From positions 1 to 64,000 of the forward strand of contig JAUSLF010000030.1 of NCBI GenBank assembly GCA_030646695.1: a DNA stretch of 64,000 nt. Reading direction: 5' to 3'. Below the pieces are notes generated by a model. The model searched no databases. It saw only the letters and a program-made list of their open reading frames with translations, and had not been told where the DNA came from. The position numbers and the translations under genes are program-made. Shown piece by piece: positions 26,634-32,638 of this stretch (position 1 is its first letter; each line of letters starts with the position of its first letter). This stretch comes from Nitrosomonadaceae bacterium. GTDB lineage: Bacteria; Pseudomonadota; Gammaproteobacteria; Burkholderiales; Nitrosomonadaceae.

Positions 26634-27626
26634 ATGAAGCCCCTCACTTTCTCCGTTCTGCGTCTGTTGGACGATGGCGAATTCCATTCCGGTGTAGCTA
26701 TCGCCCGAAATCTTGGCGTGTCGCGCGCCAGCGTGTCCCTCGCGTTGCGAGGCCTGGATGAAGTGGGGTTGGTGGTGCATAAGGTTCATGGCCGTGGCTA
26801 CCGGCTGCCCGACCCGATGCAATGGCTGGAACGGGAGGTAATCCTGCAACACCTCGACATGGAAGCGAAAACGTTTCGTCTCGAAATCCTGGACACTGCC
26901 GAATCAACCAACAGTTTGTTGTTGCAACAGGCCGCAATGGAAATGAGTTCTTCTGGTAGCGGCGGTGTGCGTGTTGTGGCGACAGAACTGCAAACTGGCG
27001 GACGCGGGCGGCGCGGGCGGGAATGGCATTCCGGTCTGGGCGACGGTCTTACATTTTCTCTGCTGTGGCGTTTCCAGCAGGGCGCCAATCTCTTGTCGGG
27101 CTTGAGCCTGGCGGTGGGGGTAGCTATCGCACGTGTACTGCAATCCTCCGGGATCAGAGGTGCAGTGCTTAAATGGCCTAACGACGTGCTGTTTCACTAC
27201 CGTAAACTGGCGGGTATCCTGATCGAGTTGCAGGGAGATATGCTGGGCTCCACTGTTGCTGTGATCGGTATTGGTATGAATTTGAGACTGTCGGACGGTA
27301 TGAAGGCTCGCATAGACCAAGGCGCGACAGACCTGTTTTCCATCACTGGCGAAATGCCTGACCGTAACAAGTTGCTGGCTGCGCTGCTGGTCGAATTGGT
27401 GACGGTGCTGAGAGAGTTTGAGCGTCAAGGTTTTGCACCTTTCAGGGAGGAATGGGTACATTGTCACGGGTTCGAGAATAAATGCGTTACCTTGCACCTG
27501 CCCGATGGCTCAAGTCAAGAAGGTGTAGTGCATGGCGTGGGGGAGGACGGTTCATTGCTATTGCACACTCCAGCGGGCAATCGTGGCTACAGCAGCGGCG
27601 AAATCACCCTGCGCAAGGTGGCATGA
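26634..27626 (+). CDS. birA: Bifunctional biotin-protein ligase / biotin operon repressor BirA
   Basis: 330 aa. An N-terminal winged HTH (residues about 5-60, [16 protein letters not shown]) is followed by the ligase core with [18 protein letters not shown] (biotinyl-5'-AMP loop), [20 protein letters not shown] and the SH3-like C-terminal domain ([13 protein letters not shown]). It attaches biotin to acetyl-CoA carboxylase carrier protein and may repress biotin genes. coaX follows after 1 bp, the common birA-coaX pairing. Confidence 0.95.
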
Positions 27627-27627
27627 T

Positions 27628-28374
27628 ATGACCTATTTATTGGCGGTTGACTCCGGCAATACCCGCATCAAGTGGGGATTGCATGATGGGCACGGCTGGT
27701 TGCAGCAGGGGGCAGTGGCGCAAAGCGAAAGCATGCTGCTGCAGCGGGAATGGCAAGATCTGCCAGAACCAGCGCGTATCATGGTTTCCAACGTGGCTGG
27801 TGAGCAAACGAAGATGGAACTGTCGGGGCTGTTTTCTCGTTGGGAAGCCGAGCCACAATGGGCAGTTGCTAGCGCATATCAATGCGGAGTACGCAACTAC
27901 TATGCGGATCCGCTGCAGCTCGGCAGCGATCGCTGGGCAGCGCTGGTTGCGGCATGGAGATCGCAACGGCAGGGTTGCCTGGTAGTGAATGCCGGTACCG
28001 CCATGACAGTGGATGCTCTTTCCGACACGGGCGAATTTCTTGGCGGTATCATCGTCCCCGGTCTTGAATTAATGCAGAAAGCATTGACGGCAAACACTGC
28101 ATCGTTGAAACTTGGAGAAGGAGAATTTCGTGATTATCCGGACAGCACCGCCGATGCCAGCTACAGTGGCGGGGTGCAGGCGCTGGCCGGCGCAGTGGAG
28201 CGCATGATTATGCTGCTCACCGCCACCCTGGGTCACGTACCCGACTGCATCGTTAGCGGCGGTACGGCGCCGCTGTTGCTGGCGCGGCTTAATATCCCCG
28301 CCAGGATGGCAGATAATCTGGTGCTGGATGGTTTGGTGGCCATTGCCGAAGAAACTACAGGGACGACGCTGTAA
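27628..28374 (+). CDS. coaX: Type III pantothenate kinase
   Basis: Phosphorylates pantothenate, first step of coenzyme A synthesis. The 248-aa protein shows the ASKHA phosphate loop [16 protein letters not shown], then [31 protein letters not shown] and [13 protein letters not shown]. The frame is open 32 codons further upstream inside birA, but the ATG right after the birA stop starts the family domain. Confidence 0.94.
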
Positions 28375-28448
28375 GTCCAGATTGGCAAATAGCCGCCGCG
28401 CAGCCAACAATTAATTTTCCAGTTTCACCACGTCTGATCCGGAAATTC

Positions 28449-29135
28449 ATGTCTCTTTTTCAGCACGCAACCTTTTACACCACCGTCAATCACCTGCGGG
28501 ATTTGCCGCTGTCCGGCGGAGTGGAAATCGCTTTTGCTGGACGTTCTAACGCAGGCAAGTCTAGTGTTATCAACACCTTGGCCAATCGCGGCCGTCTCGC
28601 CTTCGTCAGCAAAACACCGGGGCGTACTCAGCATATCAACTTTTTTCAACTGGGAAATGATCGTTTTCTGGTTGATCTTCCTGGCTACGGCTATGCCAAG
28701 GTACCGCTGGAAATCCGCCAGCACTGGGAACACCTGCTCAGCACCTATCTGCAAACCAGGGAGTCGCTTCACGGCATGGTGCTTATCATGGACGTGCGTC
28801 ATCCTTTAACCCCGCTTGACCGGCGGATGCTGGACTGGTTTGCGCCAACCGGGAAAGCGGTGCATGTGATACTTACCAAGGCGGACAAACTTACCCGGCA
28901 GCAGGCCAGAAAGACTCTTAAGGAGGTGCAGGTTTTTTTGCAGGAAAGCTATCCACAATGCAGCACGCAACTCTTTTCCAGTCTGGCCAAAGAAGGCGTC
29001 GAAGAGGCTACTACCGTGCTTGGAAGCTGGCTTGAATTGGACGCAGCTTTGACTCGGGAATCAAAGCCGACGGCTAAGCCTGAAATAAAAAACCCCCGGT
29101 TAAAGGGGAATAAAACCGGGGGCAAACTGCCTTAA
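28449..29135 (+). CDS. engB: Ribosome-biogenesis GTPase EngB (YsxC/YihA)
   Basis: 228-aa GTPase acting in large-subunit assembly. G1 is [14 protein letters not shown], the switch region [13 protein letters not shown]3 [12 protein letters not shown]4 LTKADKL, G5 SSLAKEGV. The last 20 or so residues are basic and low-complexity, and their codons coincide with a 9-bp inverted repeat that works as a terminator for the opposite strand. The C-terminus may therefore be shaped by the RNA element rather than by protein function. Confidence 0.95.
29087..29122 (-). terminator. Minus-strand terminator inside the 3' end of engB
   Basis: A perfect 9-bp stem, AACCGGGGG with CCCCCGGTT when read on the plus strand from each side, has a 12-base loop and is followed on the minus strand by six T. 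No T-run exists on the plus-strand side, so the terminator works for leftward transcription although no minus-strand protein gene lies upstream of it. Confidence 0.75.
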
Positions 29136-29190
29136 CAAGCATTAAGGCCCCGCTCAGGGAGGGGAAGCGGGAGACAGTCAAACATCGTCT
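29087..29190 (-). ncRNA. Candidate structured small RNA between engB and hemB (minus strand)
   Basis: Reading leftward, hairpins follow one another: GACAG..CTGTC (29173-29193, whose 5' end may lie just outside the transcript), CCCGCT..AGCGGG (29149-29171) with a C-rich loop TCCCCTCCCTG, CCTTAA..TTAAGG (29130-29147), then the terminator stem with T-run. The plus strand carries the same dyads but has no terminator. The C-rich loop is complementary to Shine-Dalgarno sequences, as in several regulatory RNAs. A structured candidate called the hemB motif has been described upstream of hemB in betaproteobacteria, and this may be its relative. Identity and exact ends are inferred. Confidence 0.6.
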
Positions 29191-29195
29191 GTCAA

Positions 29196-29224
29196 TAAGA
29201 CGGAAGAGTCATGGAACAAGTTCC
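29196..29224 (-). promoter_or_regulatory. Possible sigma-E-like promoter of the small RNA
   Basis: On the minus strand GGAACTT (29218-29224) stands 17 bp before TCTTA (29196-29200), close to the sigma-E consensus (GGAACTT, then TCTGA). The same bases form the dyad GGAAC..GTTCC, so an operator is an alternative reading. Confidence 0.4.
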
Positions 29225-29246
29225 CGGAATTTCAATTTTTTGTTAA

Positions 29247-30284
<1,038 letters not shown>

Positions 30285-30319
30285 ACAAGTCCCACGCAGG
30301 CGCGACAACCTGTTTGCTG

Positions 30320-32638
30320 CTACAACAACCGATCCGGCACATCGCTTGACGGTTTGGCGACGTCATCATCATCGCGGCCGGCTTCCGGCGGCAACTGCTC
30401 TTGCAGAAAATACTCTGTCATTGCACCATGCGCTTCTCTCAGTCCAGTTGCCGGATTGATTCTGGTCATCGTAATGCCTCGGGGGGGTGTATAGATGGCC
30501 ATAGGGACATTCTGCAATACCTTATTCATATAACCCATCCATATGGGCAGGGCAGCCCGACCTCCGGTTTCGTTATCACCCAATGATCTGGGATTGTCGA
30601 AACCGATCCAGGCCACTGCGACCAGATTGGCCTGGTAACCACAAAACCAGGCATCGATATGATCATTGGTGGTGCCGGTTTTTCCAGCCAGATCAGTACG
30701 GCTGAGCTGCTTTGCTCTGGTCGCAGTGCCTCGCTCCACCACATCTTGCATCATGTTGGTCATAAGAAAAGCATTGCGCGGGTCTATGACCTGCGTGGCG
30801 TTTTTTGTCACTCGCGCTGGTTGCGCCTGTTCCAGCACATTGCCCTTTTCATCCTCGATACGCTCGATGAAATAGGGTGCGATGCGGAAACCACCATTGG
30901 CGAACGTTGTGTAACCCACCGCCATCTGCATCGGCGTCACGGACCCCGCACCTAATGCCATGGTCATGTAAGGCGGGTGCATGCTGGGGTCAAAACCAAA
31001 GCGGGAGATGTAATCCTGGGCATACTGGACACCAATGGCCTGGAGAATACGAATCGACACCATATTCTTGGATTTGGCAAGCGCTTCGCGCATGCGTAAT
31101 GGCCCCTCGTACTTGCCATCGAAATTCCTTGGTTCCCACAGTTTGCTGCCCGTTTCGGCAGCGCTAAAGGAAAGCGGCGCATCGTTAATGACAGTTGCCG
31201 GGGTAAAGCCCTTTTCCAGTGCGGCTGAATAAATGAAGGGTTTCAGGCTGGAGCCCGGTTGGCGCCAAGCCTGTGTGACGTGGTTGAACTGATTGCGGTT
31301 GAAGTCAAATCCGCCCACCAGCGCGCGAATCGCCCCATCTTGCGGATCGATAGAAACCAGCGAAGCTTCAACCTGGGGAAGTTGCACAATTTGCCATACC
31401 CCTTTTTCATTCTTCTGCACCCGGATCAGCGCCCCGGGACGGATACGCTGTTGACCGGGGGCTACCGTGTCGGCGAGGAATTTATGTGCGGATTTGAGGC
31501 CATCGCCGGTGATCTCGATGCTCTCCCCCCCTCTGCGGTAAGCATGCACGGATTTGGAGTTGGCAGTCAGTACCACGGCAGCATAAATGTCATCACTGTC
31601 GATCATATCCTGCACCACATTTTCCAGCGCCTCTTCCTGATTCGCACCGTTTTTCGGCAAGTTAACAACCGCTTCCGGGCCGCGATAGCCGCGACGCCGG
31701 TCATAATCCATTACACCCTGGCGCAGAGACTGGTAAGCCGCTTGCTGATCCAGTTGCCGCACAGTCGTATAGACTTTGAAACCTCTGGTGTAGGTTTCTT
31801 CCTGATAGCGATCATAGACCGCCTGGCGCACCATTTCGGCTACATATTCAGCCCGTATTGAAAATTCCTGTGACTTGCGCTTGATCCGCAGTGGCTGTTC
31901 CCCGGTCTCCTTGAATTCCTGAGTGGGAATATGACCGAGTTCATGCATGCGCCGCAGCACGTAGAGCTGCCGCGTTTTGGCGCGCTTGGGATTGACTATC
32001 GGGTTGTAGTGCGAAGGCGCTTTGGGCAGGCCCGCCAGCATGGCAGCTTCAGCCAGGTTGATATCAGCCAGGGTTTTGCCGAAGTAGACCTGTGCTGCGG
32101 AAGCGAAACCATAGGCACGCTGACCGAGATAAATCTGGTTGATGTAGAGCTCGAGGATTTCATCCTTGCTCAAGCTGTGTTCAATCTTGAATGCAAGCAG
32201 AGCTTCGCTGAATTTTCGTGTCAGGGTTTTTTCCTTGGTCAGGAAAAAATTCCGCGCTACCTGCATGGTGATAGTGCTGGCGCCCTGACGGACGCCACCG
32301 GAGGTGAAATTGGAATAAGCTGCGCGCAGCACACCCGCGTAATCCACCCCGCCATGCTGGTAAAAGCGATCATCTTCTGCTGCCAGAATCGCCTGTTTGA
32401 GTCGTTCCGGCACTTCACTGACTTTCACCACGGCGCGGCGCTCCTCACCAAACTCCCCCATCAGCACGCCTTCGGAACTGTAAACCCGCAGGGGAATTTT
32501 CGGACGGTAATCTGTCAGCGCTTCAAGCGACGGTAGCGTGGGGAGGGTAACCAGTACCGCGAATCCGGCCAGCAGGGCGCCGAGCAGGCTCAGCCCTAAC
32601 AAAGCGACGATTGGGTAAAGCCACCAGCGTGCTAGCAT
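30320..32638 (-). CDS. mrcA: Class A penicillin-binding protein 1A
   Basis: Bifunctional peptidoglycan synthase, 772 aa. Signal anchor about residues 5-33. Glycosyltransferase 51 domain: EDDRFYQHGGVDYAGVLRAA and GASTITMQVARNFFL, KDEILELYINQIYLGQRAYG F. An OB-like insert follows, then the transpeptidase with SSLKPF (catalytic Ser), SKN and KTGTTNDHID. It is divergent from pilM, the usual ponA/pilM gene order of beta- and gammaproteobacteria. Confidence 0.96.
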   Translation of the reverse strand: MLARWWLYPIVALLGLSLLGALLAGFAVLVTLPTLPSLEALTDYRPKIPLRVYSSEGVLMGEFGEERRAVVKVSEVPERLKQAILAAEDDRFYQHGGVDYAGVLRAAYSNFTSGGVRQGASTITMQVARNFFLTKEKTLTRKFSEALLAFKIEHSLSKDEILELYINQIYLGQRAYGFASAAQVYFGKTLADINLAEAAMLAGLPKAPSHYNPIVNPKRAKTRQLYVLRRMHELGHIPTQEFKETGEQPLRIKRKSQEFSIRAEYVAEMVRQAVYDRYQEETYTRGFKVYTTVRQLDQQAAYQSLRQGVMDYDRRRGYRGPEAVVNLPKNGANQEEALENVVQDMIDSDDIYAAVVLTANSKSVHAYRRGGESIEITGDGLKSAHKFLADTVAPGQQRIRPGALIRVQKNEKGVWQIVQLPQVEASLVSIDPQDGAIRALVGGFDFNRNQFNHVTQAWRQPGSSLKPFIYSAALEKGFTPATVINDAPLSFSAAETGSKLWEPRNFDGKYEGPLRMREALAKSKNMVSIRILQAIGVQYAQDYISRFGFDPSMHPPYMTMALGAGSVTPMQMAVGYTTFANGGFRIAPYFIERIEDEKGNVLEQAQPARVTKNATQVIDPRNAFLMTNMMQDVVERGTATRAKQLSRTDLAGKTGTTNDHIDAWFCGYQANLVAVAWIGFDNPRSLGDNETGGRAALPIWMGYMNKVLQNVPMAIYTPPRGITMTRINPATGLREAHGAMTEYFLQEQLPPEAGRDDDDVAKPSSDVPDRLL

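Follow-up and report, generated by a model that had tools for sequence, protein, structure and literature searches.

What is encoded in the gap between engB and hemB in this Nitrosomonadaceae bacterium? The window (the whole stretch of DNA that was analysed, 64,000 nt) holds a strongly structured element there. It could be a leader of hemB, or a gene in its own right on the opposite strand. The initial annotation favoured the latter: a divergent, trans-acting small RNA on the minus strand, under envelope-stress control. Our best explanation, which we consider probable, is a trans-acting sRNA under sigmaE/AlgU-type control whose C-rich loops mask ribosome-binding sites. The features of the locus are as follows.

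28449-29135, plus strand: engB (YihA/YsxC GTPase), convergent with the RNA; NCBIfam TIGR03598, 235.9 bits, cut-off 124.45
29085-29224, minus strand: compact sRNA gene, whole span
29085-29174, minus strand: match to Rfam RF02837 (anti-hemB), model positions 1-81 of 81, 76.8 bits
29087-29122, minus strand: hairpin 4 and U-tract, an intrinsic terminator antisense to the engB 3' end; hairpin arms 29122-29093 and six T at 29092-29087, re-read from the sequence
29129-29148, minus strand: hairpin 3, covarying, 6/7 pairs changed on both sides
29149-29171, minus strand: hairpin 2, with a C-rich, anti-Shine-Dalgarno-like loop TCCCCTCCCTG at 29165-29155
29172-29191, minus strand: hairpin 1, RNA 5' end, covarying; its 5' arm lies outside the RF02837 model
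29196-29201, minus strand: -10 element GTCTTA; the spacer to the -35 element is 16 nt, or 17 nt when measured to TCTTA (29200-29196)
29218-29224, minus strand (read 29224-29218): -35 element GGAACTT, found in the sequence and conserved in loci of the order
29277-30284, plus strand: hemB (porphobilinogen synthase), divergent neighbour; NCBIfam NF006762, 509.1 bits, cut-off 297

The minus strand of 29087-29224 carries four hairpins, the last an intrinsic terminator within the 3' end of engB (coordinates re-read from the sequence). The terminator's T run is located on the minus strand, its loop is likewise C-rich (TTATTCCCCTTT), and it is antisense to the last engB codons because the engB frame ends within the RNA gene. 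Folding of the minus strand gives -49.6 kcal/mol (z -4.65), a value equalled by none of 200 shuffles; the plus strand also beats its shuffles, by less (-45.4, z -3.14, 0/200). In the list of open reading frames, no minus-strand frame of at least 60 aa overlaps 29087-29224. The initial description of four hairpins in about 110 nt, ending in a terminator inside engB and with no minus-strand protein gene to serve, is thus borne out by the coordinates, the folding and the family match. The RNA would begin near 29188-29193, as judged from the sequence. The tail of the engB protein (window 29085-29135) is encoded antisense to the terminator, and may be shaped by the RNA hairpin. The window EngB is 46% identical to E. 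coli yihA.

The element belongs to a known family. The initial annotation had pointed to the hemB motif, and a covariance scan matched the corresponding Rfam model, anti-hemB, end to end (cut-off 49.5 bits; E 2.3e-17). Like anti-hemB, the match lies upstream of hemB (start 29277) and on the opposite strand. It is the only RF02837 match in the source genome (89% complete) at E up to 0.001. Within the order (Burkholderiales, in class Gammaproteobacteria, both in the GTDB sense), 232 of 300 genomes match at this threshold and 190 score above the cut-off. The class sample, to which the order itself contributes four genomes (three with a match), gave 168 of 369 genomes at E up to 0.001 and 21 above the cut-off; part of the 168 is noise, because 3 of 14 control genomes match at the same loose threshold (none above the cut-off). 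For neighbourhoods outside the order we took the better-scoring class matches. Some genomes have several anti-hemB copies, up to six (L075-L079; G234, G251, G281).

That this is a small RNA and not a hemB leader is already known. Rfam types anti-hemB as 'Gene; sRNA', and the available text of PMC3521395 enters it as a 'Trans-acting RNA' in 2012. In Burkholderia cenocepacia, ncS04, named anti-hemB, is a transcribed, separate and Hfq-bound 105-nt sRNA with a mapped start and a 3' end determined by RACE (accessible part of PMC5688073). An Hfq-bound RNA reported as Bc7 may be ncS04, as far as the available sources go. The claim that the present locus changes how the hemB motif is read therefore finds no support: the catalogue entries and ncS04 came before it. 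The window RNA is a genuine instance of a catalogued RNA, and the valuable part of the initial annotation is its promoter hint. With anti-hemB/ncS04 the window RNA has in common the full RF02837 model above cut-off, the engB-hemB orientation, an Hfq gene, the C-rich loop and the terminator; it adds a defined, covarying 5' hairpin and an ECF-type promoter, the latter absent in the presumed Burkholderia copies. Three things are new: hairpin 1, which covaries outside the Rfam model; a conserved GGAACTT/TCTTA promoter; and relatives outside the order with a polA-engB layout.

We aligned 71 homologs and scored the consensus structure of that alignment, with the terminator helix written in by hand. 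Over its 26 pairs, 92.7% of cells are paired and 21 pairs have two-sided changes; none of 500 shuffles reaches either figure. In hairpin 1 all six pairs have changes on both sides, with 88.3% of cells paired. The Rfam model begins in the second half of this hairpin, and the 105-nt length of ncS04 fits an RNA that includes it. Nine columns of the alignment are invariant, all of them in hairpin 2, and five of these are the CCTCC of the loop.

The covariation also has a strand. Read on the minus strand, helices 1-3 contain 154 G-U cells against 31 A-C cells, an A-C cell being a G-U pair on the other strand. One near-constant U-G pair contributes 69 of the 154; without it the counts are 85 against 31. 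These counts and the terminator favour the minus strand over a cis leader on the hemB strand. Covariation supporting only a plus-strand leader, named at the outset as grounds for giving up the minus-strand RNA, did not appear.

The neighbours of the RNA were compared in the 88 best-scoring loci of the order, after L081, L030 and L075b had been dropped as duplicates or second copies. In 58, engB is convergent and hemB divergent; 3 have engB only, 7 hemB only, and 20 neither so arranged, some of these with engB nearby in another orientation. Ten copies have neither gene in the fetched stretch, and hemB is absent from the 5' side, within the stretch fetched, in 23 of the 88. hemB therefore adjoins the RNA often but not invariably. 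The engB frame enters the RNA gene in 41 of 61 convergent loci (11 of the 41 overlaps exceed 90 nt and are perhaps frame artefacts), and the other 20 show no overlap.

Outside the order the arrangement is similar on the engB side. EngB was sought in 80 genomes, of which 2 Pseudomonas candidates were set aside and 10 had no EngB match below E 1e-30, leaving 68. In 49 of these the RNA and engB share a contig and point their 3' ends at each other, with a gap of -42 to 846 nt; of the 19 others, 10 have the RNA and engB on different contigs. The common layout is polA > sRNA > < engB. Among 57 loci outside the order (13 of them Pseudomonas), engB is convergent in 45 and polA lies upstream on the RNA strand in 39, one locus having both inverted; the polA/engB stretches were fetched short, and some misses may be truncation. 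The E. coli polA-spf-yihA locus has the same gene order. Five loci outside the order (L096, L101, L102, L115, L139) carry the RNA in tandem pairs, and a c-di-GMP-I riboswitch lies close to another relative (L107:2037-2121). Contigs titled as Klebsiella pneumoniae and Bordetella parapertussis MAGs (L247, L260, L277) carry the RNA form; of these titles, at least the Klebsiella one appears to be wrong.

What drives the gene? We take GAACTT-N16/17-TCNNA, and thus the window's GGAACTT promoter, to be of the AlgU/sigmaE (ECF) type. We defined a strict motif as GGAACT, GGAACC or GAACTT, then 15-19 nt, then TC[TAC]NA. It lies upstream of 62 of 90 strong loci of the order, against a mean of 0.32 in dinucleotide shuffles and 3 of 1,594 random stretches; it was written after inspecting upstream regions, and because the loci score highly the rate may not extend to weaker members. 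The motif occurs in at least one locus of 33 of the 41 families of the order and is absent from 28 of the 90 loci. In a second, named set of 80 loci, 55 of the 79 with enough upstream sequence have it among the matches listed (Aromatoleum, Azospira, Rhodocyclus and Azoarcus included); 5 of the 79 duplicate loci already in the first set, so the two are not independent. Outside the order a wider pattern was found in 21 of 50 loci, against 0.19 in mononucleotide shuffles. The strict motif is also retained by four (L055, L056, L062, L085) of the ten copies whose fetched stretch contains neither engB nor hemB. In two genomes of family f33 the hemB-side copy (L084, L086) is without the strict motif, and a second copy away from engB and hemB (L062, L085) keeps it. 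A sigma-70 scan of the minus strand of 28500-29800 found no site and did not detect the GGAACTT/TCTTA promoter. The window promoter is of ECF type, and the evidence for it is conservation.

The candidate sigma factor is widespread. RpoE (TIGR02939) scores above cut-off in 52 of 60 genomes of the order, the source genome included; it is missing or weak in G009, G019, G031, G033, G041 and G044, and we counted it as present in G037, where it is split, and in G053, which falls marginally short of the cut-off. Among these 60 genomes anti-hemB is missing in 4 of the 6 that are poor in RpoE against 8 of the 54 others (Fisher p 0.012, uncorrected for kinship). G033, without a strong RpoE match, has three anti-hemB places. 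The promoter of rpoE itself offers a comparison. The strict sRNA motif was found upstream of none of the best 30 rpoE genes. A pattern relaxed only after that result, GAAC[TCA] N16-18 TCT, precedes rpoE in 18 of these 30 genomes, the source genome included, against 0.85 in mononucleotide shuffles. The rpoE and sRNA upstream motifs share the core GAACT[AT] and GTCT and differ in the last -10 bases, rpoE having mostly GTCTNT, not TCTNA. We read this as RpoE-type control of the sRNA, another ECF sigma factor being possible. At the level of the motif, then, the early suggestion that the GGAACTT/TCTTA pair marks envelope-stress-type control has gained support within the order, at rpoE and outside the order.

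The lineage in which anti-hemB has been studied is different. The motif is absent in three presumed Burkholderia copies (L002, L003, L020), in the copies of family f49, and in named Caenimonas and Ramlibacter loci (L263, L301, L305). By eye, these motif-less copies have apparent sigma-70-like boxes in its place. In the accessible part of PMC5688073, ncS04 changes significantly in none of seven tabled conditions, a table in which SDS and peroxide do not figure, and the text says that short stress exposure largely failed to induce sRNAs. The absence of the motif from the presumed Burkholderia copies is consistent with an unchanged ncS04. We found no report of an anti-hemB member responding to stress in the literature searched, parts of which were available as partial text.

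The promoter and the gene order suggest kinship with two known sRNAs, ErsA and sX13. ErsA of Pseudomonas depends on the stress sigma factor AlgU. In presumed Pseudomonadaceae (the family of the PrrF-bearing genome G460), 13 of 16 engB loci have a GAACTT, GAACTA or GAACCT promoter just 3' of engB on the opposite strand, a count that stands without a shuffle control, and in those 13 an RNA ending in a terminator follows; G460 has no such promoter downstream of its own engB. Rfam calls this engB-side RNA Pseudomon-1/ErsA in 7 of 7 loci at the gathering cut-off. In a second, overlapping set it does so in 10 of 13, with one more below the cut-off and two without. When R2, a covariance model built from 57 matches outside the order, is run over 64 kb with E up to 5, its hits are confined to engB-side sites in those same 13 of the 16 Pseudomonas loci; the E-values range from 1.2e-4 to 7.1e-3 (rough calibration). 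Model R1 finds 10 of these 16 engB loci, more weakly than R2. Across 39 Pseudomonadaceae genomes R1 gave five weak matches, four of them on another contig than engB, and neither engB nor hemB lies near any of the five. Neither R1 nor R2 matches the Spot 42 locus.

Window positions 27000-32000 hold no match to RF01719 (ErsA; cut-off 50), RF02232 (sX13) or RF00021 (Spot 42) at E up to 1. In an Rfam scan of 38 relatives, with matches kept up to E 0.5, three match sX13 (L117, 6.4e-4; L119, 1.1e-3; L098, 0.25) and three match ErsA (L134, 0.015; L094, 0.06; L105, 0.064), all six at the place and strand of the RF02837 match. The alphaproteobacterial ar14 family matches seven of the 38, with a best E of 1.4e-3, and part of the likeness is therefore the C-rich-loop style itself. 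Rfam assigns no clan to the anti-hemB, ErsA or sX13 families.

How alike are these RNAs? ErsA (Pseudomon-1, RF01719) shares with the window RNA the position convergent with engB, a GAAC promoter and TC box at like spacing, similar length (116 model positions) and C-rich loops. Its pairing is Hfq-dependent in the available literature, as we propose for the window RNA; the accessible text of PMC6321483 describes it as sigma22-dependent and as repressing algC at its ribosome-binding site with Hfq. The differences are that polA, not hemB, lies on the 5' side of ErsA (11/13 loci), and that three stem-loops with a U-rich stretch are in print (PMC8575079, available part) against four hairpins here. 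The sX13 RNA of Xanthomonadaceae (RF02232), also located at polA in Xanthomonas, shares the C-rich loops and the action that we propose for the window RNA, and the bridging loci L117 and L119 match both models. In the accessible part of PMC3771888, sX13 represses through C-rich loops that meet G-rich motifs at the ribosome-binding sites of its targets; unlike the RNA proposed here it is Hfq-independent, and it is called constitutive, although one heading in the paper reads 'sX13 accumulates under stress conditions'. The available part of that paper already remarks on Spot 42 and alpha-r7 at the polA locus. Spot 42 (RF00021, E. coli spf) has the layout polA > spf > < yihA in common and differs in that its transcription is repressed by cAMP-CRP, according to a cited title. 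PMC8395346 describes ErsA as a functional orthologue of this RNA. The literature searched, which comprised papers outside subscription (the first ErsA and Bc7 reports thus stand apart), gave no link from anti-hemB to ErsA, sX13 or a sigmaE promoter in the text available.

The window RNA appears, from sequence comparison, to be the order's form of the sRNA gene found between polA and engB elsewhere in the class. A stronger proposal is that anti-hemB, ErsA and sX13 are one inherited polA-engB sRNA gene throughout the class, in which envelope-stress sigma control is ancestral and was lost where anti-hemB has been studied, polA and engB being old neighbours and hemB a late one. We hold this to be evenly balanced between true and false, having lowered our estimate to that level because of the ar14 matches.

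We propose the following mechanism. A free-standing RNA of about 105-110 nt would be made from the minus strand in the source organism, running from a start near 29190 to the terminator within engB. With a promoter of the sigmaE/AlgU (RpoE) type, its level should rise on envelope stress. The four hairpins would fold the RNA so as to expose two C-rich loops, one in hairpin 2 and one in the terminator, to mRNAs, and Hfq, whose gene is present in the source genome, would bind at the 3' U-tract. The loops would then pair with G-rich Shine-Dalgarno regions and lower the translation of several mRNAs. By analogy with sX13 and ErsA, the RNA should thus dampen the translation of a group of mRNAs when the envelope is under stress. 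The hairpin 2 loop is complementary to Shine-Dalgarno sequences and its CCTCC is invariant in the 71 homologs; at sequence level this agrees with the idea, put forward at the outset, that a C-rich loop could pair with ribosome-binding sites.

Porin genes were examined as candidate targets. We used the best 30 loci of 49 genomes with a porin; 29 start windows were scored, one being too short. The consensus hairpin 2 loop, not the window's own, did no better on these 29 start regions than shuffled seeds (42/60 shuffles as good), in a test weakened by the 7 of 30 genomes without an anti-hemB match (G001, G009, G019, G037, G038, G040, G044). The terminator loop was equalled by 4 of 60 shuffles on the same 29 starts, too weak to use. 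Overall, porins gained no support as a target class. In the source genome the complement of the loop occurs at 12 places with at most two mismatches, one of them the RNA gene itself, and the reversed pattern at 6. By eye, four porin 5' regions (L208, L226, L230, L236) share an element CTTCTC...GAGAGGTT or ...GGGAGGT upstream of the start.

Could the element serve a neighbouring gene in cis? As a plus-strand 5' leader of hemB it would sit well in the 58 of 88 loci where it lies between engB and hemB, and the plus strand does fold better than shuffles. Against this, the terminator and U-tract are on the minus strand, the G-U counts fit the minus reading with or without the near-constant pair, 23 of 88 loci show no hemB on the 5' side within the fetched stretch, polA is the upstream neighbour in 39 of 57 loci outside the order, and ncS04 is a separate sRNA in the available report. 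We reject the hemB leader on strand signal and neighbours, and regard it as scarcely credible; the same evidence supports the initial claim of a divergent minus-strand RNA. An RNA acting mainly on engB, as an antisense RNA or through convergent transcription at the engB 3' end, would explain why the two genes converge in 61 of 88 loci of the order, with frame overlap in 41 of the 61 (11 doubtful), and in 49 of 68 genomes outside it. However, 20 of the 61 convergent loci are without overlap, in ten copies the fetched stretch lacks both engB and hemB, and the invariant columns map to hairpin 2, its loop included, rather than to the overlap. We consider this very unlikely.

Two further alternatives accept a trans-acting sRNA or its likeness to others and dispute the cause. 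The promoter might be driven by sigma-70 or by another ECF sigma factor, so that envelope stress is not the signal. The motif-less copies with sigma-70-like boxes point that way, as do the unchanged ncS04 of the available table, the strict pattern at none of 30 rpoE genes, and the several RpoE-like ECF sigma factors in many genomes of the order. The motif is nevertheless kept in 33 of 41 families and in four of the ten copies with no engB or hemB in the stretch fetched, the sigma-70 scan found nothing on the minus strand of 28500-29800, and the motif upstream of 18 of 30 rpoE genes shares GAAC and TCT at like spacing; we judge this alternative unlikely. The likeness to ErsA and sX13 might itself be convergence, since terminators and C-rich loops evolve readily and unrelated sRNAs may commonly occupy the polA-engB gap. 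That account, which we find plausible without favouring it, draws on the missing RF01719 and RF02232 matches in the window, the modest E-values of the covariance matches to ErsA, the failure of R1 and R2 at the Spot 42 locus, and ar14 matching seven relatives about as well as sX13 and ErsA match three each. It has to contend with the shared gene order, with a shared promoter type in which the 13 of 16 Pseudomonas loci with a promoter are the same 13 that match R2, and with the bridging loci, each of which matches two families on one strand and at one place (RF02837 with RF02232 in L117, L119 and L098; with RF01719 in L134, L105 and L094).

The RNA has been catalogued already, and in the literature searched, part of it available as partial text, we found nothing on its control or its job. 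The conserved stress-type promoter supplies a signal to test for anti-hemB RNA, and its absence from the studied lineage may explain the lack of response in the species tested so far. If anti-hemB, ErsA and sX13 are linked, one old gene would replace what are now separate lineage-specific sRNAs. Such a link bears on the question that the authors of the sX13 study raised in 2013, in the accessible part of PMC3771888: do polA loci elsewhere encode similarly acting sRNAs? And if the single-gene reading is true, the 'hemB' in the name anti-hemB would reflect a late neighbour.
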